Source of the DNA: Ferrimicrobium acidiphilum DSM 19497
GTDB taxonomy: Bacteria > Actinomycetota > Acidimicrobiia > Acidimicrobiales > Acidimicrobiaceae
Direction of reading: 5' to 3'
Assembly: GCF_000949255.1 (NCBI RefSeq)
Contig: NZ_JXUW01000003.1
Location: forward strand, 62,001-126,000
Length of the DNA stretch: 64,000 nt
Positions 53,243 to 64,000 of the stretch are shown here, piece by piece. The notes beneath the pieces were generated by a model. That model made no database searches and had not been told where the DNA came from. It saw nothing but the letters and a program-made list of their open reading frames with translations. The first letter of the stretch is position 1, and each line of letters begins with the position of its first letter. Both the position numbers and the translations under genes were made by a program.

Positions 53243-54580
53243 TCAATCTCCAGATCCAGAATATAGGAAGCGAAGAATTTGACGCTGGATCCTAGGCGCC
53301 GATCTGGTCGGCGAAATATCTGCCGCTGTAGGCTGCGTGCCTTGTGCTGGTAGCAGCTGGTCAGTGTGTGTAGCCGGAATCTACTGTCTCTATCGAGAGG
53401 CCCAAGCTATGTCGGGTTCGAAAAATTAGGAGTTACATTCACCTACAATCTTTCGACGCATTTCAACGTATAAGCGCACTTCAGAGCGTTGTGGGTCGAT
53501 CGTTCAATATATGCGGCCATAGCCTCACCTGTGAAAATATGGGCGAAAATTCGGATGGACAGGATCCCAGGTGATAATGGAGCGACCGCATTCCACCATC
53601 ATCGCCGAAGGCAAGCGAGTCCCGAATCTCCAGTGTGATCCATGGTCTCAGAGGACCGGTTTGAAGACGCGTGCTTGAAGCTTACAGATAGTGAATAATC
53701 CCGGGTTTCTTGGAGACCCAGACTTCGCCATCTCGGGTCAGTTGACTATCGCTGCTAGAACCTGCTGACTCATAGTTCGCTCAGGTGACCTATACAGTTG
53801 CGCACCGACAACCAGGTAGGGTACCTCGGTTTCGGCGATGATCGTGTGGACGGCGGGCTCGGACACCCCAAGTAAAGAACACGAGATGGCCCATGCGTGA
53901 CGAGTATCCTGCATCAGCACACATCTCTTGAGTGGCGCAGCGATAGCTTGATCGCTGTATCTGGTGGTTCCTCCCAGCGCTCGGAGCTCAGGCTGGTCCC
54001 ATCGCTACCTCGAGTAGCACCTGATGAACATACGGAGCAAAAGCCGAACGCATGGAACCGGCACCCCACCATTACCGTCAAAGAGATTGTTCCGGAGGCT
54101 CTGGCCCCACGGCAATCTAGGCAAGGGATCTCTTCGTGCAATCGCCTTGTGGAGTCCCGTCAGTAACCGCAACTGCAAGGGTCGATCCTAGCGGAGTCCA
54201 CGGGAAATGCGAGGGATAGCTCCGTTGGACCCTCACATCCCGGGTCCTACCTCCCGTTCAATATTCTGTTGTCGTAGATACTGCTCGTACCGGCACCGAG
54301 GTCTACGCCCGGACACCTTTCAGTACCCACACCGCCCGCCACGAATCCCAGCGCGAATACTGCGTAGCCGCTCGGCGATCAACAACTGCCCTTCCTATGT
54401 CCACGTAGAGGCTTACGATGTGCGTCGGGTGCCCAGTTCACGCAGGCCTCACTCTCCCCATAGCCCAGGCGTATACGTCGCGACTAATCGCAACTAGCCG
54501 TTGTCTGCACTTGGAGATAGTGACTTTCTCCGACCAGCGCGCTCTGCTAGACTCGGGCGGACTCACAGCGGAGGGAACCA
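53243..54580. other. 1.3-kb gene-poor region
   Basis: No long conserved frame is present. Overlapping short frames on both strands lack ribosome-binding sites and domains, apart from a weak helix-turn-helix candidate at 53738-53920 (minus). The region may contain decayed genes. The last 40 bases hold the ribosome-binding site (GGAGGG) of the penicillin-acylase gene. Confidence 0.6.
53738..53920 (-). CDS. Possible excisionase-type small HTH protein
   Basis: The 60-residue frame contains ISCSLLGVSEPAVHTIIAET followed by VPYLVVGAQLYR, which has the spacing of the excisionase/MerR-like HTH_17 fold (LGVS-x4-V-x-II, then a VG-x-x-LYR wing). Start and ribosome-binding site are not convincing, and composition does not set it apart from its surroundings. 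It may be a decayed remnant. Confidence 0.3.
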   Translation of the reverse strand: MLMQDTRHAWAISCSLLGVSEPAVHTIIAETEVPYLVVGAQLYRSPERTMSQQVLAAIVN

Positions 54581-57046
54581 ATGAACCGGCGTGGACTCTT
54601 GGGGACGATCACAGTACTAATTGCCCTTGTCGTGCTCGTAGTAGTTCAGACCAAGGGAATCGCGAGCGTTCCACCACTGGGGGCGACCCTCGATCCAGCC
54701 ACTGGCGCACTCAGTATTGGCTCCAGGGCGCGACTCCCACGATCTGCGACCATCCCTATCGCCCACATGCCAGGTGTCGTCACCGTCTCCTACTCCGCAC
54801 AGGGGATCCCCGATCTTCACGCCACGAACCAGAGCGCGCTCTGGTTCGCCATGGGATACCTTGAGGCACGGAATCGACTCTTCGAGATGGATCTCATCCG
54901 ACGCGAGGCCGCTGGAGAACTCGCGGCCGTCCTCGGGTCGAGCTATCTCGCCTCAGATCTGTTTGAGCTACGCCTTGGTCTAATGCGAACCGCCAAGGCG
55001 AACTTTGCCGCCCTGCCTGCAACTGACCGAAAAGTCCTAGAGATCTTCTCCAACGGCGTAAACGCGGCACGTTCCTACGATATGGGTCATCATCAGCTGC
55101 CCGTTGAGTTTCGGCTCCTCAACTATACGCCGGCGCCATGGACGCCAATCGACTCGATGCTGGTACAAGGCTATCTCACCCAGACCCTCGACTATTCGCA
55201 GAACCCGGTGGACTATTCGATCCTCGTGGGGCACCTGGGTTACCAGCGGACGATGGATCTCTTCCCTGTCATTGCGAGGAACCCTCAATCGCCCTATGAT
55301 CTTGGACCGTATCACTCACAACACCACATCCCCATAGACCCTTCTACCACCGTGAGCCCCGGACTCCTTGCCTCCTTGCAGGCGATCGCCCAGGCGAGTA
55401 CGAAGCTACCCGACACCGCGATCCACTCCTTCTCGAACTCCAACAACTGGGCGATCTCGGGATCCAAGTCATCGACCGGCAACGCCATCGTCGCCGGCGA
55501 TCCGCATCTGAATCAGACGCTCCCGGCCGTTTGGTACTGGGTCAACGCCCACGCACCCGGCATCAGCTTTGCCGGAGTGACGGTACCGGGGCTCCCGATC
55601 ATTCTGATCGGGAGGAATCAGTCGATTGCATGGAGTGAGACCGATGTCGAGAACCAATCGACCTTCTTCTACCAGGTGACCACCAACAAAGCGCACCCCG
55701 GAGACTATCTCCTCCACGGAGCTTGGGTACCATTTGGCCACATAACCTACACCGTCAAAGTCAAAGGTCAACCCGCACAACACCTGGTCATTGACACCAC
55801 CGCCGACGGCCCAATTATCTCAGTCCACGGCGTAAAGGTCGCGGTGTACTGGCTTGGTGCCCAGGTATCGAAGGACTTCGCCTCCTTGATGGGTGTGTTA
55901 CATGCCTCGAACTGGACGCAGTTCAAGGCCGCGCTCTCATCATGGAGAGCACCATCTCAGAACTTCGTATTCGGGGACCGCCACGGCAATATCGGACTCA
56001 TCTCGGCTGGCTACTACCCCATCCTGAGCGCTCGAGATCCCTGGCTTGTCATGAATGGCAACAGTGGAGATCGTATCGTTGGTTCGATTCCCTACCGTGA
56101 GATACCACAGAGTTATGACCCGAAGTCGGGCTTCGTCTTCAGCGCCAACCAACGACCTGTCGCCGCCAACTACCCGTACTACCTTGGGACCTCGTTCAAC
56201 TTCTTTTCCAATGGCTACCGTGCCGACGAGATTCACGCGGTACTGTCCGCAACGAGCAAGATCACCCCTGCCGATGTCGCGCATCTTCAGAACTCGGTGA
56301 CCGACTATCTCGCTACCCAGCTCGTGCCCTGGCTCGTCCGCCAGTTCAACGGCGTCCATGAACCTCCTGCCGTCGCAGCGGCCCTGCACACGCTCAGCCA
56401 TTGGAATGCAAGGATGGGAGCGTCCTCGACGGCAGCAAGCATCTGGTGGACCTTTCTCGGCGACGAGATTCACGACACCTTCGGTCCTTGGTTCGCAAGG
56501 TATCGCGTCCCCCAACCGACCGGGAGCTCGCTCGTGGTCAATCAGCTCAGTGCACCCCTCGTCGAAGATCTCCAATACATGGATCTATCTCAGCCGTCGA
56601 GCCCGTTCTTTACCCCGCCCGGCGATGCGCACAAGGTGACCGCGGGCACGGTTGCACGTGAAGCACTCGGCCAGGCGATCGCAACGCTGACCCACAAGTT
56701 CGGCTCCAGTCAGCAGTCCTGGCGCTGGGATCGCCTTCACTTTAGAGAATTCCCATCGTTGAGTGGAGCCGCAGGTCTTTCATATGGACCCCGGGGCTCC
56801 TCTGGGGATGCCTGGACCGTCGATGCGGCTGATGGCAACCTACTCTCTGAGGCCGGGCCGAGCTGGCGTATGATCGTAGCCTTTGGGGACCGCGGTTATG
56901 CGATCTACCCGGGCGGCCAATCGGAGAACCCGCTCTCACCCTGGTATCAGAATCAGATTCCTGACTGGTTTAGTGGCCGTTATCTGCCCTTCGGTCTCGG
57001 TGCGCAACCGGGCATCGCTACCTGGACGCTGGAGCCACGATCATGA
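54581..57046 (+). CDS. Penicillin acylase family protein (Ntn hydrolase, S45)
   Basis: This family hydrolyses amide bonds of penicillins, acyl-homoserine lactones or other N-acyl compounds. The 821-residue product has an N-terminal hydrophobic segment (about residues 6-24), so it is exported or anchored. Autocatalytic cleavage is expected before S287 in FSNSNNWAISG, giving an alpha chain ending near 286 and a beta chain starting with the nucleophile Ser; VAGDPHL and the later Asn-containing motifs fit. GGAGGG precedes the ATG. Its stop overlaps a small membrane-protein gene. The substrate is not predictable. Confidence 0.9.
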   Translation: MNRRGLLGTITVLIALVVLVVVQTKGIASVPPLGATLDPATGALSIGSRARLPRSATIPIAHMPGVVTVSYSAQGIPDLHATNQSALWFAMGYLEARNRLFEMDLIRREAAGELAAVLGSSYLASDLFELRLGLMRTAKANFAALPATDRKVLEIFSNGVNAARSYDMGHHQLPVEFRLLNYTPAPWTPIDSMLVQGYLTQTLDYSQNPVDYSILVGHLGYQRTMDLFPVIARNPQSPYDLGPYHSQHHIPIDPSTTVSPGLLASLQAIAQASTKLPDTAIHSFSNSNNWAISGSKSSTGNAIVAGDPHLNQTLPAVWYWVNAHAPGISFAGVTVPGLPIILIGRNQSIAWSETDVENQSTFFYQVTTNKAHPGDYLLHGAWVPFGHITYTVKVKGQPAQHLVIDTTADGPIISVHGVKVAVYWLGAQVSKDFASLMGVLHASNWTQFKAALSSWRAPSQNFVFGDRHGNIGLISAGYYPILSARDPWLVMNGNSGDRIVGSIPYREIPQSYDPKSGFVFSANQRPVAANYPYYLGTSFNFFSNGYRADEIHAVLSATSKITPADVAHLQNSVTDYLATQLVPWLVRQFNGVHEPPAVAAALHTLSHWNARMGASSTAASIWWTFLGDEIHDTFGPWFARYRVPQPTGSSLVVNQLSAPLVEDLQYMDLSQPSSPFFTPPGDAHKVTAGTVAREALGQAIATLTHKFGSSQQSWRWDRLHFREFPSLSGAAGLSYGPRGSSGDAWTVDAADGNLLSEAGPSWRMIVAFGDRGYAIYPGGQSENPLSPWYQNQIPDWFSGRYLPFGLGAQPGIATWTLEPRS

Positions 57047-57408
57047 CCCGGGGGTACTGGTCGATCGTCTGTGTTCTCCTCGGCGTCTTCGCCGTTGCTC
57101 TCGCCAACGCCGTTGGACTCTGGTGGCTCGGTTACCTGATAGGCGCGGTCCTCGCAATCTGGATCCGCCCAAGTCTTGCTGGCCTCGCGGTGCTGCTTGG
57201 CTGGGGCGCAGGCTTCATGCAAAGCGCCATCGGTGATAACCTCAGCGGATCCGCCCGAGTCGTCGCTCTACTCGCAGGACTACCCGCAAGCCTTGGCCCT
57301 GCGCTGGTGGCAATCGCACTGATCCTTGCCTTCCTGGAGGGGTGGCTTCCAGCCATTCTCGCTCGCCGAGTGCTCACGATTGCGAGAAGACCAAAGGCGG
57401 CCAACTAG
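57043..57408 (+). CDS. Small integral membrane protein coupled to the acylase
   Basis: The 121-residue protein has about four hydrophobic segments (VCVLLGVFAVALANAVG, WLGYLIGAVLAIW, LAGLAVLLGWGAGFM and a longer C-terminal stretch) and a basic C-terminus (RRVLTIARRPKAAN). ATG overlaps the acylase stop (ATGA), so the two are translated together. No family recognised; a role in localisation or processing of the acylase is only suggested by coupling. Confidence 0.7.
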   Translation: MTRGYWSIVCVLLGVFAVALANAVGLWWLGYLIGAVLAIWIRPSLAGLAVLLGWGAGFMQSAIGDNLSGSARVVALLAGLPASLGPALVAIALILAFLEGWLPAILARRVLTIARRPKAAN

Positions 57409-57711
57409 CAGTACCATGCGGTTCGAACACGTCGCCAGATGGCGATGTCGAGAGCACTGGCGCTGCACTGACCTCGCGCGCCACGGAGCGGGTCCGATCG
57501 GTATCCACATGAGCTACATGTCGCCATAGAAGCGCAAAGGGAAACAGCCTGATTCGCTTAGGCTCATCATGACTCACATGGCCGCTCGTCGCTCTCACGC
57601 TTGGGCGAGTCACTCGCCGCGCGAGACGAGCGCCTTCACCCAAAACACAATCATCCCTTATCTCAGCAGTGAAACCGGTGTGGCGGGGCTCTCAGGCTCC
57701 TCCATCACCTG
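57409..57711. other. Intergenic stretch without a supported gene
   Basis: Only short unlikely frames are present. A small hairpin GGCGAG-TCA-CTCGCC lies near 57604-57618 and could end the acylase transcript, but it has no T-run. Confidence 0.5.
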
Positions 57712-58109
57712 ACGCCATCGTCTGGTGCCAGCTTGGCAGGGCTGGACTTCGACAGTGCCCGAGCGTGGTCGGTGTACAACTGGATGGGTCCGTGTAAGGC
57801 TGCCCTGCGTTTGCTGAACGGGGGTTTCTTGCTCGTGACCTTGGTGTTGCGCTCTTTTGGGTCAACTTGGTCGCTGTAGGGCTCCTCCGGACCCGCTTGG
57901 CCTTAGGGATCCCTGATTTTGAGTTGCTCGTGGATCGGTGGAGCCAACAGGTACAGCTGCCCTGGGATCCAATGGATGCCTCCAGCGTAGCCGATGCGGT
58001 CTGCCTTCTCTTGTCGGATCTTGCTCGACCCATCAGCGGTGAGGTGCTGCATGTGGATGGAGGTTTCCATGCCATGGCTACCTGCTTGGGGAGTGGTTCT
58101 CCTCGGTGA
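57712..58109 (+). pseudogene. fabI: 3' remnant of fabI (enoyl-ACP reductase)
   Basis: A first frame encodes SGASLAGLDFDSARAWSVYN then WMGPCKAALRLLN, which is the FabI region containing the active-site Tyr and Lys (Y-x6-K pattern: YNWMGPCK). After a shift near 57825 the next frame encodes FLARDLGVALFWVNLVAVG, then DAVCLLLSDLARPISGEVLHVDGGFHAMA, the FabI C-terminus. The N-terminal two thirds is absent and I find no start, so this is a remnant. Its last 32 bases overlap the 3' end of the minus-strand regulator gene. Confidence 0.82.
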
Positions 58110-58470
58110 GATCCGGATGCTCGTGGATATCGGAGACGTTCTTGCCGGTTCGAAGAGGCGCTAAATTAGCGACGAGTTGTAGGAGCTCGCCGATGCTATG
58201 CGGTTGTTCGACAGGATGGCGTAATGGTTGATCGGGGTGGATCTCATAGTGGTTGCGACGGCCGATGCGTGTTCGCTTCACATAATTGCCGTCCACGAGA
58301 TCAGCGATAATTGCCTGGGCTGCGCGCTCGGTGATCCCGACCCGCGAGGCAATGTCGCGGCCGCGAATCCCGGGATCGCCGGCGATACAGACGAGGACAT
58401 GCCCGTGGTTGGTAAGGAACGTCCAGTTGGACCGTGCCGAATCTTCGGGGGTGCGATTGGAGTGAGCCAT
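58078..58470 (-). CDS. Winged-helix transcriptional regulator next to dab operon
   Basis: The protein is about 130 residues from MAHSNRTPEDSARSNWTFL. It has a winged-helix domain: GHVLVCIAGDPGIRGRDIASRVGITERAAQAIIADLVDGNYVKRTRIGRRNHYEIHPDQPLRHPVE, of which RDIASRVGITERAAQAII is the helix-turn-helix and RIGRRNHYEI the wing. Similar small MarR/ArsR-like regulators are widespread in actinobacteria. It is transcribed away from dabB, with about 180 bp between them containing palindromes. The ATG at 58494 is the alternative start. A role as repressor or activator of the dab genes is inferred from position only. Confidence 0.8.
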   Translation of the reverse strand: MAHSNRTPEDSARSNWTFLTNHGHVLVCIAGDPGIRGRDIASRVGITERAAQAIIADLVDGNYVKRTRIGRRNHYEIHPDQPLRHPVEQPHSIGELLQLVANLAPLRTGKNVSDIHEHPDLTEENHSPSR

Positions 58471-58519
58471 ATTTCTAATGGTAACTGGGTTCATGAAATG
58501 GCTGACAGGTTTTTCCCCA

Positions 58520-58537
58520 CGGGTGACCGATCACCCG
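58520..58537. promoter_or_regulatory. Palindrome in the regulator-dab intergenic region
   Basis: CGGGTGA and TCACCCG flank a 4-base centre (CCGA), a perfect 7-bp inverted repeat. It lies upstream of a TATAAT box at 58548-58553, overlapping the region where the -35 would be, which is a usual operator position. The binding protein is probably the divergent winged-helix regulator, but this is not shown by sequence. Confidence 0.55.
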
Positions 58538-58547
58538 CGGCATTGGT

Positions 58548-58553
58548 TATAAT
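58548..58553 (+). promoter_or_regulatory. Candidate -10 box of the dab operon
   Basis: A consensus TATAAT lies about 98 bases before dabB. No good -35 is found at 17 bp; GTGACC at 58523-58528 is 19 bp upstream and inside the palindrome, which may mean activator dependence or a different true start. Confidence 0.45.
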
Positions 58554-58576
58554 AACAGCGGTGTATAACTCACGAA

Positions 58577-58587
58577 ACGAAGTTCGT
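58577..58587. promoter_or_regulatory. Second palindrome before dabB
   Basis: ACGAAGTTCGT is an 11-bp perfect palindrome around a central G, about 24-34 bases downstream of the candidate -10. Another ACGAA lies five bases upstream (58572-58576). It could be a downstream operator in the 5' UTR or transcription start region. Function inferred only from position. Confidence 0.4.
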
Positions 58588-58650
58588 AAATAAGTACGGG
58601 AGGGTAGCCATGGGACTGGGGCGGACTGTATGCCATGAGGGGAGTTGTTG

Positions 58651-60255
58651 ATGGACGTCTTTACACAATCGCTTCTCGCCGCAGCGGTGCTGATGCCAAT
58701 GGTAGGGTCCGCTATCGCAGTGCTTGGTGCAAGGGTATCGAATCGTCGCCGTCGAATAGCGACGGAACTTGGTTGGATGTCAGCGCTGCTCGCCGTCGGT
58801 ACCGCTGTGGCGGTAGCACTTCGTGGATCTTTTGGGATCGCTCTAGGTGGTGCCCATGGTCAGCCATTGCTCGGCCTTTGGGCAGACCCACTCACGGCAA
58901 CGCTTCTGGTCCTCATCTGTGGGGTTGGTGCGGTGGTGCAAAGCTATGGCCTTCGGTACCTACAGGCCGACCCGAAGGCTGAGCGCTTCGTCGCTGCGGC
59001 GAACATGGTAGTGACCGCTATGGCGGTTGTGAGCACATCGATAACGCTCGCAGGCTTGGTCGCCGCTTGGGTGGTTGCAGGGATCGGCTTTGTAGCCGTG
59101 GTCGGGGCGCGACCGGATCTGCCGGGAGTGCGGACGTCTGCCCGACGTACCTTGGGAATGTTCGTCCTTGGCGACGCGGCCTTAGTGGGTGCCGCGGTCA
59201 TTATCTGGTTACGAGCAGGGAACGTCGATGTGGTCTCCTCGTATGCGGTACGCCTGGCAGCTGGAGCCATCGGTGGATTTTCAGGCGCGGTGGCACTCCT
59301 TATCGTGGTGGCAGCACTTTCGCGTTCTGCTCAGGGGCCCTTTGGTCGTTGGCTACCGGGCACTGTGTCGGCGCCGACGCCAGCATCAGCCCTGCTCCAT
59401 GCCGGGGTTGTCAACGGTGGTGGAATCCTGTTGATACGTCTCGGTGCACTAGCCGGTGACTCGATCTTCGCCATGGTAGTAGCGTTTACGGTCGCCGCAG
59501 GCACCGCAATCGTGGCGACGGCACTCATGACCCGCAAGCCAGACGTCAAGGGAGCTTTGGTGTTCTCGACGATGGGTCAGATGGGATTCATGATTGCCGA
59601 ATGTGCAGTTGGAGCTTACCTGGCGGCGTTGGTCCATCTGGTTGGCCATGGCATGTACAAGGCGACGCTGTTCTTTGGCTCTGGCTCACAAGTCTCTCGC
59701 CTTGGCGAGGAGTCTATCGCACCGGCTCGTGCGGGCTCTACCCTTGTGCGGTTACTGGCGGCGGGGACGATGACAGTTGCAACGGTCGGTGTAATGACCA
59801 CAATTCCCGGGGTTCTGGAACATCGCGGCGGTGCGGTATTGCTTGTCTTCACCGCTGCAACCGCTGCAGCAGCAGGCTGGGCATGGTGGGCGCCGCGTCC
59901 AGGCTCATTGGGTGTTACAGTCGCGTGGGTGGCCTCAATGCTTGCTGCTGGAGCACTTTATGGGCTGGTCTTGGGCGGTTTGGGTGACTGGATCGGTCCA
60001 GCACTCCCAATCACGGGTATCGGTACGCTCAGTCCCTGGTGGTTGTTGATTATGGGTGTGGGAGGACTTGCGATTGCGGGCCTTCTCCGGATCTCTAGCA
60101 TCAGGCGGCGATTGGTGGCAAGCTTGATCGCAGCTGGTGCACCGCCGGCCATAACAAGCCCGCAAAGGAGCACTCACGGCTTTGTGGATCCCTGGGTGGG
60201 GTCGCGTGGAGATGCTGTTCAGACGACTGCCATATGGATGGAGGGTGTGGCGTGA
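58651..60255 (+). CDS. dabB: DAB complex membrane subunit DabB (NuoL/NdhF-like)
   Basis: DabB is the ion-conducting membrane partner of DabA in the DAB inorganic-carbon accumulation complex. The 534-residue protein is hydrophobic throughout with many membrane segments and belongs to the proton-conducting NuoL/NdhF/MrpA superfamily: TPASALLHAGVVNGGGILLIR and LVHLVGHGMYKATLFFGSG are the conserved TM7-TM8 and TM12-like motifs. No other complex I genes are present. ATG 58651 has GAGGGGAG upstream; TTG 58645 is an alternative. The stop overlaps the dabA GTG. It should supply the proton or sodium motive force coupling. Confidence 0.9.
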   Translation: MDVFTQSLLAAAVLMPMVGSAIAVLGARVSNRRRRIATELGWMSALLAVGTAVAVALRGSFGIALGGAHGQPLLGLWADPLTATLLVLICGVGAVVQSYGLRYLQADPKAERFVAAANMVVTAMAVVSTSITLAGLVAAWVVAGIGFVAVVGARPDLPGVRTSARRTLGMFVLGDAALVGAAVIIWLRAGNVDVVSSYAVRLAAGAIGGFSGAVALLIVVAALSRSAQGPFGRWLPGTVSAPTPASALLHAGVVNGGGILLIRLGALAGDSIFAMVVAFTVAAGTAIVATALMTRKPDVKGALVFSTMGQMGFMIAECAVGAYLAALVHLVGHGMYKATLFFGSGSQVSRLGEESIAPARAGSTLVRLLAAGTMTVATVGVMTTIPGVLEHRGGAVLLVFTAATAAAAGWAWWAPRPGSLGVTVAWVASMLAAGALYGLVLGGLGDWIGPALPITGIGTLSPWWLLIMGVGGLAIAGLLRISSIRRRLVASLIAAGAPPAITSPQRSTHGFVDPWVGSRGDAVQTTAIWMEGVA

Positions 60256-62780
60256 GCGCAACTGATGAACTGCTCGCTGCTCGGACACGACTGCTCGTTC
60301 AAGTCGACGAGGCAGCCCGACTCATCGCCCCGTTGTGGCCGCTTTCAACCGTCATCGCAGTAAACCCACTGTGGGATCTCCGTCAAATGCCCTTTGCCGA
60401 AGCGGTTACCTACGCAAGCCGTGTGCTTGGCATCTGCGGATACCCGTCACGAACGCTGTTCGCCGAGGAGTATGCGAGCCAACGAATTACCAATGACGAT
60501 CTGCGAGAAGCTCTTGGGGATTGCCCAGTTGCCCATGGTGGGAAAGGAATCGATGATGTTGTGGTCCTGACGGCTACGGAGCGCCATGATTTGGCTCATG
60601 GTACCGAATTCGCGGCGACTACGGATCGGGAGGTCGCCAAGTGGAGTGCTGCATTCCTTGCAGACATGGTACCTATCCATGCAGCCGGTGGGTTCTATGC
60701 CGCCTGGCGGGCGATCATACCCTCAGACCCGGCAATCCGCAGGATCTTGGGGAAATCCGGGAGGAGCCGCCTTGCCGAGCTCCCGATCCAGCCCGAGGAT
60801 GCGATTCTGCTCGGCCTCGACCGGCTCGGCGTGCCCGAGGAGGATCGAATTGCAGAGCTCGCTCGCCAGCTGGCACGGATGCCTGGGTGGGCCGGGCACG
60901 CCAAGTGGCGCTCTAGGTGGGCTGCACCCTATCAGCCGGGTCCAGCTCTACATCTAGTTGACTACCTTGCGGTTCGTCTCAGCTATGAGGCCGCATTGTC
61001 GGTAGTGGCGACCGACGAAGAGGGAGCGATGGGTAGCTCAGCTTTCTACCAACACCACAGGGAGTTGGATGAGGCGCATCGAAGTTGTGAAGTTCGGCGA
61101 CTTGAGCCGCCACGCGTGGACGTCGAGGCTATTCCATCCGATGTGCGCGAGGAGTTGTTTGCGTTGTCCGGTGCCGAGGCCGCGCAGGTCTGGCTCAGGG
61201 CCTACGAGGGCCACTATCGTGATCGACTGCTCGACTCTTTGAACACAGAGGTTGATGGGCTTTCAACTCAGGCGCCCTCTGCCCAAGCTGTCTTTTGTAT
61301 TGATGTGCGCTCCGAGGGACTGCGCCGCCATCTCGAAGCTGTTGGTCCGTACGAGACGTTTGGGTTTGCCGGCTTCTTTGCACTGCCGATTCGCCATCAG
61401 CCCTGGGGAACGACCGAAGCGGTCGATCTTTGCCCAGTGCTGCTTCGACCCGGCTCGAAGACCATGGAGAAGCCGTATAGTGCCGACGTAACCGCGAGTC
61501 GTCACCTTCGTGGCCGCCAGGTAGAGGCTGGTGCTCGTATGATGTTCGATACCGCCAAGAAGGCGGCGGTGTCTCCGTTCATCCTCGCCGAAGCCACCGG
61601 TTTCCTGGCTGGTCCTATATCCGCCACCAAGACCTTCTTCCCGGGATCGTATGCGAAGTTGCGTAGTGCGCTGCGTGCATCGCTGGCTCCGTCAGTTGCC
61701 ACGGTGATCGAAACCGACCCCACCGATGGTGGGATGAGCGACGAAGAGCAGGCGCTGTTTGCCGAGACGGCTTTGACCACGATGGGTCTCACGCGAGATT
61801 TTGCCTCGCTGGTTCTGCTTTGTGGGCATGGCAGTACTACGGAGAACAACCCGTATGCCTCTGCGCTCGACTGCGGAGCCTGCGGAGGCAATAGGGGTGG
61901 CGCGAGCGCTCGCGCTGCAGCCTGGATCTTGAACCGGATGAGAACTCGTGAATTGCTTGCTCAACGGGGGATCTCCATACCTGGGGAGACGGTCTTTGTC
62001 GCAGGCGAGCACGACACCGCGACCGATACGGTCGCCATCTACGACCTACATCTCGTTCCACGGTCTCATCGCGACGGTATCGCTGTCTTGGTCGCAGATC
62101 TCGAGCGCGCGGGCACGGCACTAGCAAAGGAGCGTGCTCGGCTCTTGCCAGGGGTGAAGAAGGGTCGCAATGCAGTGACCCAGGTGGCCGCGCGTTCCAC
62201 AGATTGGGCCCAGGTACAACCTGAATGGGGGTTGGCCCGAAACGCCGCATTCATCGTTGCTCCGCGAAGCGTGACCGCCGGTGTCGATCTGGAGGGTCGC
62301 TGCTTCTTGCACTCCTATGATGCATCCGTGGACCCAGACGGCGTTGCCTTGGAGACGATCCTTACAGCGCCTATGGTCGTTGCCCATTGGATCAACGCGC
62401 AGTACTACTTCTCAACCGTTGATCCAGAGCTACTCTCTGCCGGAGACAAAACCGTCCACAACATCGTTGCCGGAGTAGGCGTGGTCGCCGGTGCCGGAGG
62501 CGACTTGAAGGTTGGCCTGCCCCTCCAATCGCTCTTCGAGAGTGGCCGGACTTATCATGAGCCACTTCGACTACTCACCGTTGTCCAGGCCCCACGAGTC
62601 CGCCTCGACGCGGTCATCAATCGCAACCCGGTTCTGCGCGAACTCTTCGACGGGCAGTGGGTGCATTTGGCTGCGCGTGACGACGAGCACGACACCTGGA
62701 AGATCCGTCGCAGTGACGGTAGTTGGGTCCAGTGGAGACCCGCTGCAACCTATACCGAGGAGGTAAGTACCCATGGATGA
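60252..62780 (+). CDS. dabA: DAB complex cytosolic subunit DabA (DUF2309)
   Basis: DabA carries the beta-carbonic-anhydrase-like zinc site of the DAB complex, proposed to hydrate CO2 to bicarbonate in the cytoplasm one way. The 842-residue product starts at GTG overlapping dabB, behind GGAGGG. The zinc-site residues match the known Halothiobacillus protein: C349 and D351 in FCIDVRSEGLRRHLE, H526 in CGHGSTTENNPY and C541 in LDCGACGG. The N-terminal WPLSTVIAVNPLWDL motif is the usual DUF2309 start. Length is typical (about 800-850). Confidence 0.93.
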   Translation: MSATDELLAARTRLLVQVDEAARLIAPLWPLSTVIAVNPLWDLRQMPFAEAVTYASRVLGICGYPSRTLFAEEYASQRITNDDLREALGDCPVAHGGKGIDDVVVLTATERHDLAHGTEFAATTDREVAKWSAAFLADMVPIHAAGGFYAAWRAIIPSDPAIRRILGKSGRSRLAELPIQPEDAILLGLDRLGVPEEDRIAELARQLARMPGWAGHAKWRSRWAAPYQPGPALHLVDYLAVRLSYEAALSVVATDEEGAMGSSAFYQHHRELDEAHRSCEVRRLEPPRVDVEAIPSDVREELFALSGAEAAQVWLRAYEGHYRDRLLDSLNTEVDGLSTQAPSAQAVFCIDVRSEGLRRHLEAVGPYETFGFAGFFALPIRHQPWGTTEAVDLCPVLLRPGSKTMEKPYSADVTASRHLRGRQVEAGARMMFDTAKKAAVSPFILAEATGFLAGPISATKTFFPGSYAKLRSALRASLAPSVATVIETDPTDGGMSDEEQALFAETALTTMGLTRDFASLVLLCGHGSTTENNPYASALDCGACGGNRGGASARAAAWILNRMRTRELLAQRGISIPGETVFVAGEHDTATDTVAIYDLHLVPRSHRDGIAVLVADLERAGTALAKERARLLPGVKKGRNAVTQVAARSTDWAQVQPEWGLARNAAFIVAPRSVTAGVDLEGRCFLHSYDASVDPDGVALETILTAPMVVAHWINAQYYFSTVDPELLSAGDKTVHNIVAGVGVVAGAGGDLKVGLPLQSLFESGRTYHEPLRLLTVVQAPRVRLDAVINRNPVLRELFDGQWVHLAARDDEHDTWKIRRSDGSWVQWRPAATYTEEVSTHG

Positions 62781-63099
62781 AAGCTGGGCATTGGCGCAGA
62801 TGACAAGGATCGAGGTCGTGATTGCTGGAGAGGATGTTCCCCTTGTCACTGAGCTCTTGTCCGAGGTGGGTGCAACCGGATTCACCGTGGTGTCGAACGT
62901 CTCTGGCCTTGGCCATAGCGGGTATCACCAGGGACGTCTGCTCTTCAACGACCGAAATGCGCTTTCCCTAATTACCGTGGTGCTGCCCGCCGAGAGGGTG
63001 AGGCCATTACTCGACGGTCTTCGGTCACTGCTTGCACACCGCTCAGGAGTACTCCTGGTCTCCGATACCTGGGTAAGTCGCCCGGAATACTTCCAGTGA
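62773..63099 (+). CDS. PII-like regulatory protein of the dab operon
   Basis: The 108-residue product has the ferredoxin-like PII layout: RIEVVIAGEDVPLVTELLSEVGATGFTVV, then the T-loop position occupied by NVSGLGHSGYHQGR and LITVVLPAERVRPLLDGL, with VLLVSDTWVSRPEYF at the end. The classical T-loop tyrosine context of GlnB is not present, so it belongs to the PII-like group that includes the carboxysome-associated CPII protein. ATG lies inside the dabA end (8-bp overlap), so it is co-translated with the DAB subunits and probably senses a carbon-status ligand. Confidence 0.82.
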   Translation: MDESWALAQMTRIEVVIAGEDVPLVTELLSEVGATGFTVVSNVSGLGHSGYHQGRLLFNDRNALSLITVVLPAERVRPLLDGLRSLLAHRSGVLLVSDTWVSRPEYFQ

Positions 63100-64000
63100 T
63101 CGTTGCGACGGTCAATCATGTTGTGTCAGAAGTAACCAACAGGTTCCCCCAGGACACCTCCTCGTACAGGGGAGATATTGGGGTCCGAGGACCTCAGAGA
63201 TCTGGACGCCTAGGTGGCGAGATTTTCAGAAACAAGGCTTGTCGACGCAAAGTGTTACTGAATTGAGAAGATGTATAGAAAATGTGGCAAAAACGCTGTT
63301 CAGCCGCCATCGCGTGTACTAATTCAGCCGCCATCGAAGGTCCACAAGCCATACAACTTAACTAAGATCCATGCCCACCTACGCCGGTAAATTGACGTTT
63401 CTGTGGTGAGGTACAGAGAGGGACCGGTGATGACGATGGTGCCACGTGGTTGAGCAGGATTGCGTTGATGGCCATGTTTGACTGGCCACTTGGACATCCT
63501 TTGCTATACCACCCTTGGATTTGCCCGCAGCCTGCACTTGTTCAATCTCGCGAGTATCTCTATGGTCGTCTCAGCGATAGCCCTCGTCAAGCGGTCGGGG
63601 GGCCGCCTGGTCAGTGACCTGGCGGCGAATGACTCGCAAAGAGGCCAGAAACGAGACCCGGTCCGGGTCGAGTTCGTGAACCTCCCCGCCCTTACAGACG
63701 TGGCTTCTGGCTCCGCTGTTTGGTTGAGGTTACCTGGCACCGCTCCCATCAAGCTACCGCGACCGACTGGTCTAGCACCGATGGATCGGTACTGGTAGAT
63801 GAGTTTGCTAGCTTCGGCTTGCTAGTCTGAGTTATCTCAGACAGGGCCCGGTTCTGGGCGCTACTCAAGGCTTTGGCCTTGCGGCACTGCACCATATGGT
63901 GTGCCTCGCGTTGATCGGGTGACCAACGTTGGACAGACCGGAGATACGTGACTCGGATTGTAGTATCCGGTCTTATGGGTACGTATTCCCCGTATATCGC
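63100..64000. other. 900-bp region without a supported gene
   Basis: A 106-residue plus-strand frame at 63478-63798 and an 83-residue minus-strand frame through the same bases have no domain or ribosome-binding site. A short direct repeat lies at 63299-63336. A small palindrome GGTCC-GA-GGACC lies near 63181-63194 and could be a weak end-of-operon hairpin. Confidence 0.55.
63299..63336. repeat. Two copies of TTCAGCCGCCATCG, 24 bp apart
   Basis: The unit occurs at 63299-63312 and 63323-63336, with TGTGGCAAAAACG just before it on the plus strand. The period is close to the 22-23 bp of the IS21-type terminal repeats elsewhere in the window, so it might be a relic of an IS end; no transposase frame follows within the window. 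Confidence 0.5.

Follow-up and report, generated by a model that had tools for sequence, protein, structure and literature searches.

Four genes between positions 58078 and 63099 of a 64,000-nucleotide stretch of DNA from Ferrimicrobium acidiphilum DSM 19497 (contig NZ_JXUW01000003.1, positions 62,001 to 126,000 of the forward strand; the whole stretch is referred to here as the window) raise the question of what a DAB-type inorganic carbon system does in this genome, which carbon demand it serves and how it is controlled. We propose, with a probability of roughly 0.75, that these genes specify a DAB-type vectorial carbonic anhydrase operon, tuned by a CPII-type protein and controlled by a repressor, that would provide bicarbonate for RuBisCO and carboxylases, a function assigned by homology. 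A sequence-only reading of the window had described dabB, dabA and a PII-like gene that overlap by 4 and 8 bases, with a winged-helix gene divergent from them, and the coordinates given below agree with that arrangement.

The gene dabB (58651..60255, plus strand) encodes a 534-residue NuoL-like membrane subunit that matches Pfam family PF00361 with an E value of 1.5e-27, and dabA (60252..62780, plus strand, GTG start) encodes an 842-residue beta-carbonic-anhydrase-like zinc subunit that matches PF10070 over model positions 1-747 of 747 (7.3e-244). The single solved protein matched by DabA was DabA2 of the Halothiobacillus DAB2 complex (PDB 9rd0, 6.3e-118), while DabB2 (1.3e-30) ranked second for DabB after the complex I L subunit (7.3e-32). 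In DAB2 zinc is bound by Cys351, His524 and Cys539, and Asp353 is one half of an Asp-Arg dyad by which the zinc-bound water is held in place (PMC13144422). When compared with DabA2, the window DabA retains the ligands as C349, H526 and C541 and the dyad as D351/R353, together with S354, A373, H587, D592, L632, W659, L661 and the finger glutamate E447. This amounts to identity at 13 of the 14 DabA2 positions named in the available text of PMC13144422, the sole exception being the tunnel gate, which is Arg653 in DabA2 and Gln656 here. The four DabA zinc-site residues listed by the sequence-only reading are thus all present where it placed them, with the correction that three are ligands and D351 is their catalytic partner in the dyad. 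For DabB, identity extends to 8 of the 11 DabB2 positions named in the same text, comprising D175, the counterpart of the ion-pair residue Asp185, and the proton-path residues S246, H250, K300, S306, H329, H333 and K337; Ile151 of DabB2 is a valine in the window protein. The two family matches and the retained catalytic residues support the assignment of these genes to the DAB family made by the earlier reading. No second dabA was found in the genome.

The same residues were counted across 70 aligned DabA rows (DabA2 and the window protein included) and 64 DabB rows, some of which represent one contig twice. Among rows with a residue at the position, the zinc ligands are retained in 65/65 (C349), 66/66 (H526) and 65/66 (C541), and the finger glutamate E447 is present in 63 of 65. 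On the DabB side H250, K300, H329, H333 and K337 are each retained in 64/64 rows.

The gene that follows dabA (62773..63099, plus strand) encodes a 108-residue PII protein that matches PF00543 (8.1e-18). In a profile search CPII of Thiomonas intermedia, to which it is ~37% identical, came first (5d4n, 4.5e-23), with GlnK-type chains far lower. Its structural model has a mean predicted local distance difference test (pLDDT) score of 84, with residues 53-55 below 50, and Foldseek ranked the CPII chain 5d4o, a structure with bound ADP, AMP and bicarbonate, above SbtB and GlnK (3.5e-11, template modelling score 0.85); ranks 1-14 are CPII chains throughout. CPII is a sensor-type protein, and the term "PII-like subunit" used in the sequence-only reading is therefore too strong. 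The CPII studied by Wheatley et al. in 2016 reportedly binds ADP more strongly with bicarbonate.

We then looked at where such proteins occur among 148 genomes of the order, a set in which counts are uncorrected for kinship. The CPII-like profile matched ten times, in 9 genomes. Comparison of places by eye puts nine of these matches immediately 3' of a dabA; the remaining one, in G136, is a fragment of 29 residues where its contig ends. Eight genomes carry the dabA-CPII pair, among which 6 are without form I-type RuBisCO, 6 without a match to bacterial microcompartment (BMC) shell proteins and 5 without both. Because CPII-like genes stand 3' of dabA even without form I RuBisCO or shell proteins, this distribution suggests that the partner of CPII is DAB and not the carboxysome, a partnership that we infer from gene position. 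In the present genome, which has no PF00936 match, the protein is associated with dabA and not with a carboxysome operon, and for this reason we call it CPII-like.

The gene junctions are also conserved. GGGGAG precedes the dabB ATG at 58651. Given the dabA GTG start at 60252, dabB and dabA overlap by 4 bases (GTGA), and the ATG of the PII gene at 62773 gives an 8-base overlap with dabA, ATGGATGA. For comparison we used 40 DabA loci obtained by scanning named genome contigs, referred to as relatives. The octamer NTGGATGA occurs at the dabA-PII junction in 20/20 relatives that have the PII gene. An NTGA at the dabB stop was present in 37/37 relatives with both dabB and dabA, which is weak evidence by itself because little beyond a TGA stop is required, and the dabA start picked by homology uses the 4-base overlap in 26 of these 37 loci. 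A regulator homologue is divergent beside dabB in 26/35 relatives with >900 bases upstream, and the PII gene lies 3' of dabA in 19/34 relatives with >450 bases downstream. In the cultured relatives Acidithrix and Aciditerrimonas none was seen in that position. Identity to the window proteins falls as low as 59% among the aligned PII proteins (19 of the 20 PII-bearing loci plus the window, L038 being cut by a contig end and left out) and 57% among the aligned regulators (the window and 23 of 27 loci, without L015, L020, L030 and L038), indicating that the dabA-PII junction has been retained through much sequence change. Further afield in the order, dab loci frequently have a regulator homologue close by, with variable orientation.

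The divergent gene (58078..58494, minus strand) encodes a winged-helix transcriptional regulator. Its resemblance to MarR_2 (22.4 bits, cut-off 27) and HTH_24 (21.7 bits, cut-off 21.9) falls below both Pfam cut-offs, and a sequence search for a solved homologue returned none. The structural model is good only for about residues 31-90, where the winged helix lies; the best fold matches of this partly good model were MarR, AntR and ArsR proteins at E 0.002-0.003, with none at or below 0.001. The regulator profile matches two places in the genome, the second of which (G000:C32:28041-28343, locus L046) has an internal stop codon; another frame in its region by eye resembles an intron reverse transcriptase.

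Between the regulator gene and dabB we identified a predicted operator, TCACGAAACGAAGTTCGTAA (58570..58589, plus strand), built on the inverted repeat ACGAA-N6-TTCGT. Immediately 5' of it is a -10-like hexamer, TATAAC (58564..58569, plus strand), predicted by eye. The window site follows the pattern TCACGAW-N6-WTCGTNA, and near relatives share the inverted repeat ACGAW-N6-WTCGT upstream of dabB, often directly after a -10-like hexamer (again by eye). The pattern TCACGAWNNNNNNWTCGTNA is found with at most 2 mismatches in 29/38 upstream regions (window included) compared with 16/1806 background stretches, the pattern having been derived from these same 38 regions. When the pattern was built solely from the window, L005 and L006 and then tried on loci held out from it, 19 of the 25 other regulator-bearing loci had a site with at most 3 mismatches compared with 13/3282 background stretches; the tested loci are related and not independent. 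The exact operator occurs once in the 3.09-Mb genome, at the dab site. Conservation of the operator among near relatives supports the earlier description of the system as having its own regulator. Because the predicted operator follows the -10-like box, the natural reading is that the regulator would repress by blocking the promoter.

Other searches around the operator gave little. A consensus promoter scan returned nothing at the -10-like box or operator, and promoter and terminator scans had no result. Within the 20 kb around cbbLS the operator pattern had 13 matches at up to 3 mismatches against 13.5 expected, with none at 0 or 1. Upstream of the operator, at 58520-58537, lies a perfect palindrome with 7-base arms, CGGGTGACCGATCACCCG, of which L005 has a copy with longer arms; as a candidate operator it was dropped, being present only in the window and L005 among 28 upstream regions.

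The sequence-only reading had seen neither RuBisCO nor carboxysome genes in the window and had left the carbon demand open between autotrophy and anaplerosis. A search of the genome (3.09 Mb, 97.9% complete) found one form I-type RuBisCO (5.3e-138) in a 20-kb stretch holding a CbbR-like LysR gene, cbbL, cbbS, cbbX, a class I aldolase, phosphoribulokinase (PRK; NCBIfam, 354 bits, cut-off 236) and a fused transketolase/FBPase frame. The last of these, at L002:2950-5931 on the minus strand beside PRK, is a single 994-residue frame that joins transketolase with a GlpX-type fructose-1,6-bisphosphatase (FBPase). The Calvin cycle is therefore encoded, which settles for this genome the question of carbon demand left by the earlier reading. 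No BMC shell protein (PF00936) was matched, and the idea of a carboxysome in the genome was dropped; neither beta- nor alpha-carbonic anhydrase was matched, the gamma class not having been searched for. Host acidophily is taken from relatives only, the family having acid-loving members; form I RuBisCO has been described for unidentified Acidimicrobiaceae from acid mine drainage (PMC8357290).

Across the order DabA goes together with RuBisCO. Form I-type RuBisCO occurs in 13/29 genomes with DabA and in 5/119 without it (Fisher p 2e-7, kinship ignored). These counts leave out 10 of 28 matching genomes as weak, RuBisCO-like or fragmentary (E >1e-90), among them G006 (7e-67) and G009, whose match may be a genuine RuBisCO truncated where the contig stops. 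Among RuBisCO genomes lacking PF00484, the beta-carbonic anhydrase family, 10/11 have DabA, as do 3/7 of those with PF00484. In a DabA tree of 56 rows, made by a quick method from which near-copies and proteins <500 residues were omitted and in which long branches leave the deep joins unsure, the two rows nearest the window carry a PII gene, and the 38-row set that contains the window DabA is half PII-bearing. All 8 carboxysome-linked rows fall outside this set, and the order thus has at least two DAB settings, namely carboxysome-type loci and the regulator-dabB-dabA-CPII operon. One genome, G092, has both: at L050 (C38) dab and a more distant PII gene lie near RuBisCO and a BMC gene, and at L055 (C65) there is a second, regulator-dabB-dabA-CPII operon.

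Several observations weigh against the operon and the control that we propose. DabB has a valine for Arg182, which forms the second ion pair in DAB2, and an arginine for Lys235. Arg182 is retained in just 5/64 DabB rows and the Lys235 position is arginine in 60/64; set against the proton-path residues retained in 64/64, this indicates that the second ion pair, and not the proton path, is mostly missing in the set. In DAB2 alanine changes in the ion pairs lowered growth yield by 30-60% with complementation retained (PMC13144422). The PII gene was not seen 3' of dabA in 15 of the 34 relatives with sufficient downstream sequence. The absence of form I-type RuBisCO from 6 of the 8 genomes with CPII-type operons means that autotrophy is not the general purpose of such operons. 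With regard to the operator, a site with at most 3 mismatches is present in 3/9 loci in which no regulator was seen, and the best site of L008 has 5 mismatches. Among 17 other, mostly distant, dab loci, scanned over a longer stretch on both strands, a single locus has a site at 2 mismatches and another 7 have one at 3, and given this weak recurrence we claim the operator for near relatives only. Genome-wide there are 15 one-mismatch matches outside dab, and sites with at most 2 mismatches number 114 forward and 118 reverse compared with 72 and 69 for the reversed control, so that weak operator sites say little.

In the mechanism that we envisage from the DAB2 comparison, CO2 would enter by diffusion and be hydrated by DabA at its buried zinc site. 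Protons passing through DabB and the DabA finger would render hydration one-way and trap bicarbonate in the cytoplasm. The bicarbonate would then feed bicarbonate-using carboxylases and, after re-dehydration to CO2, a carboxysome-free form I RuBisCO and the Calvin cycle. For the co-translated CPII-like protein the probable role is to sense bicarbonate and adenine nucleotides and to adjust DAB activity accordingly. The winged-helix protein encoded divergently is probably a repressor of the operon, acting at an operator overlapping the transcription start until some signal would release it.

The two subunits might instead carry out sodium-coupled bicarbonate uptake, since they belong to the same two protein families as the Staphylococcus MpsAB homologues, which have been proposed to be a Na+/HCO3- symporter (PMC13144422, introduction). 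We consider this improbable, as the solved relative is DAB2, which is argued in the available text of PMC13144422 to be CO2-using and proton-coupled, and the zinc site with its Asp-Arg dyad is complete here, as judged by comparison with DabA2. Established chemistry also dictates that outside bicarbonate would be scarce if the host is acidophilic. Somewhat less likely still is a chance presence in the operon of an ordinary PII protein of nitrogen control (GlnB/GlnK). The Pfam P-II match would fit such a protein, but GlnK/GlnB-type chains match much worse than CPII in both sequence and fold, and an operon position by chance is at odds with the recurrence of the CPII-like profile directly 3' of dabA.

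A closer contender, to which we give somewhat less than even odds, is that the DAB system works mainly in anaplerosis and biosynthesis, supplying bicarbonate to carboxylases in place of a missing beta-carbonic anhydrase and not serving RuBisCO. The lack of beta- and alpha-carbonic anhydrase matches in the genome favors it, as does the scarcity of RuBisCO among the dabA-CPII genomes, and stored bicarbonate would aid RuBisCO without a carboxysome only if reconverted to CO2. PF00484 is likewise less frequent in DabA genomes (10/29) than in the others (83/119), but this contrast weakens to 10/21 vs 83/119 (p 0.077) on removal of 8 BMC-linked genomes, in which RuBisCO or dabA shares its contig with a BMC gene, and many PF00484 matches span less than half of the model. 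A mainly anaplerotic role is also opposed by the Calvin cycle encoded in this genome and by the association of DabA with RuBisCO in the order. In 6/13 genomes with both genes dabA and cbbL lie within ~14 kb; those six also have a BMC gene on the contig, unlike the present case.

Beyond the vectorial carbonic anhydrase operon favored above, we tentatively entertain a more specific possibility, that the system is a stand-alone bicarbonate supply replacing soluble carbonic anhydrase in carboxysome-free cells, in which a dedicated repressor acting at one strong operator might set the amount of DAB and a DAB-partnered CPII might gate its activity by bicarbonate and energy charge. With the CPII-like gene translationally overlapped with dabA and no shell proteins present, the simplest hypothesis is that CPII controls DAB. 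The predicted operator would offer a handle on the switching of CO2-uptake genes in these Actinobacteria. In extreme acidophiles the membrane potential is small or reversed. If the host is such an organism, the pump must run on the pH gradient despite a reversed or collapsed potential, and a DAB2 relative of acid-adapted descent could be used to tell apart what the pH gradient and the potential each contribute. Purified DAB2 was inactive without a membrane potential and its authors term the complex membrane-potential coupled (PMC13144422).

Two further features of the surroundings were noted. On the plus strand at 57694-58106, convergent with the regulator gene, is a broken remnant of an enoyl-ACP reductase/short-chain dehydrogenase/reductase gene with matches in two frames; L016 has an intact relative, and L005 matches residues 96-270 only. 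The contig of L040 is labelled Acidobacteriota, its regulator and PII protein being almost identical to those of the actinobacterial L034, and a binning error is possible. No Rfam family was matched within 54000-64000.

Among known systems, DAB2 of Halothiobacillus neapolitanus (Nat Commun 2026, PMC13144422, PDB 9rd0) shares the two-subunit make-up, and its zinc ligands, Asp-Arg dyad, Leu658, finger Glu444 and DabB proton-path Ser/His/Lys residues have counterparts here. The window system differs from it in having glutamine for Arg653, in Val/Val/Arg for DabB Ile151/Arg182/Lys235, in the PII gene 3' of dabA and in the divergent winged-helix gene. The regulator and operator returned no description in the literature searched, a search that most subscription papers, preprints and supplements lay outside. 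The DAB2 operon of H. neapolitanus presumably includes a LysR gene. One nuoL-ybcC clade has a reverse LysR gene at its 5' end (PMC5700660). The nuoL-ybcC-PII clade B of the same COGNAT study (Biol Direct 2017) has the order found here, with a NuoL homologue, COG3002/DUF2309 and a 3' PII gene; its authors left the function unassigned, and in the available portion of that paper a winged-helix regulator or operator is not named for the PII-bearing clade. DAB1 of the H. neapolitanus carboxysome locus (Sci Rep 2015, PMC4633670) likewise brings NuoL, DUF2309 and PII/SbtB genes together, but there they belong to an expanded alpha-carboxysome locus that encodes a further small membrane protein, whereas the present system has two subunits and its genome no shell match. 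CPII of Thiomonas intermedia K12 (PDB 5d4l, 5d4n-p, 5drk, 5ds7), for which the PDB titles give structures with ADP, AMP and bicarbonate, is the solved protein closest to the window protein in sequence and fold. It is named for carboxysomes (title cited in PMC6458275), in contrast to its present counterpart in a genome without a BMC match. The dabB-dabA-PII order is thus already published (2015, PMC4633670; 2017, PMC5700660), and DAB and CPII are both known; what look less described are the regulator with its conserved operator and the carboxysome-free setting.

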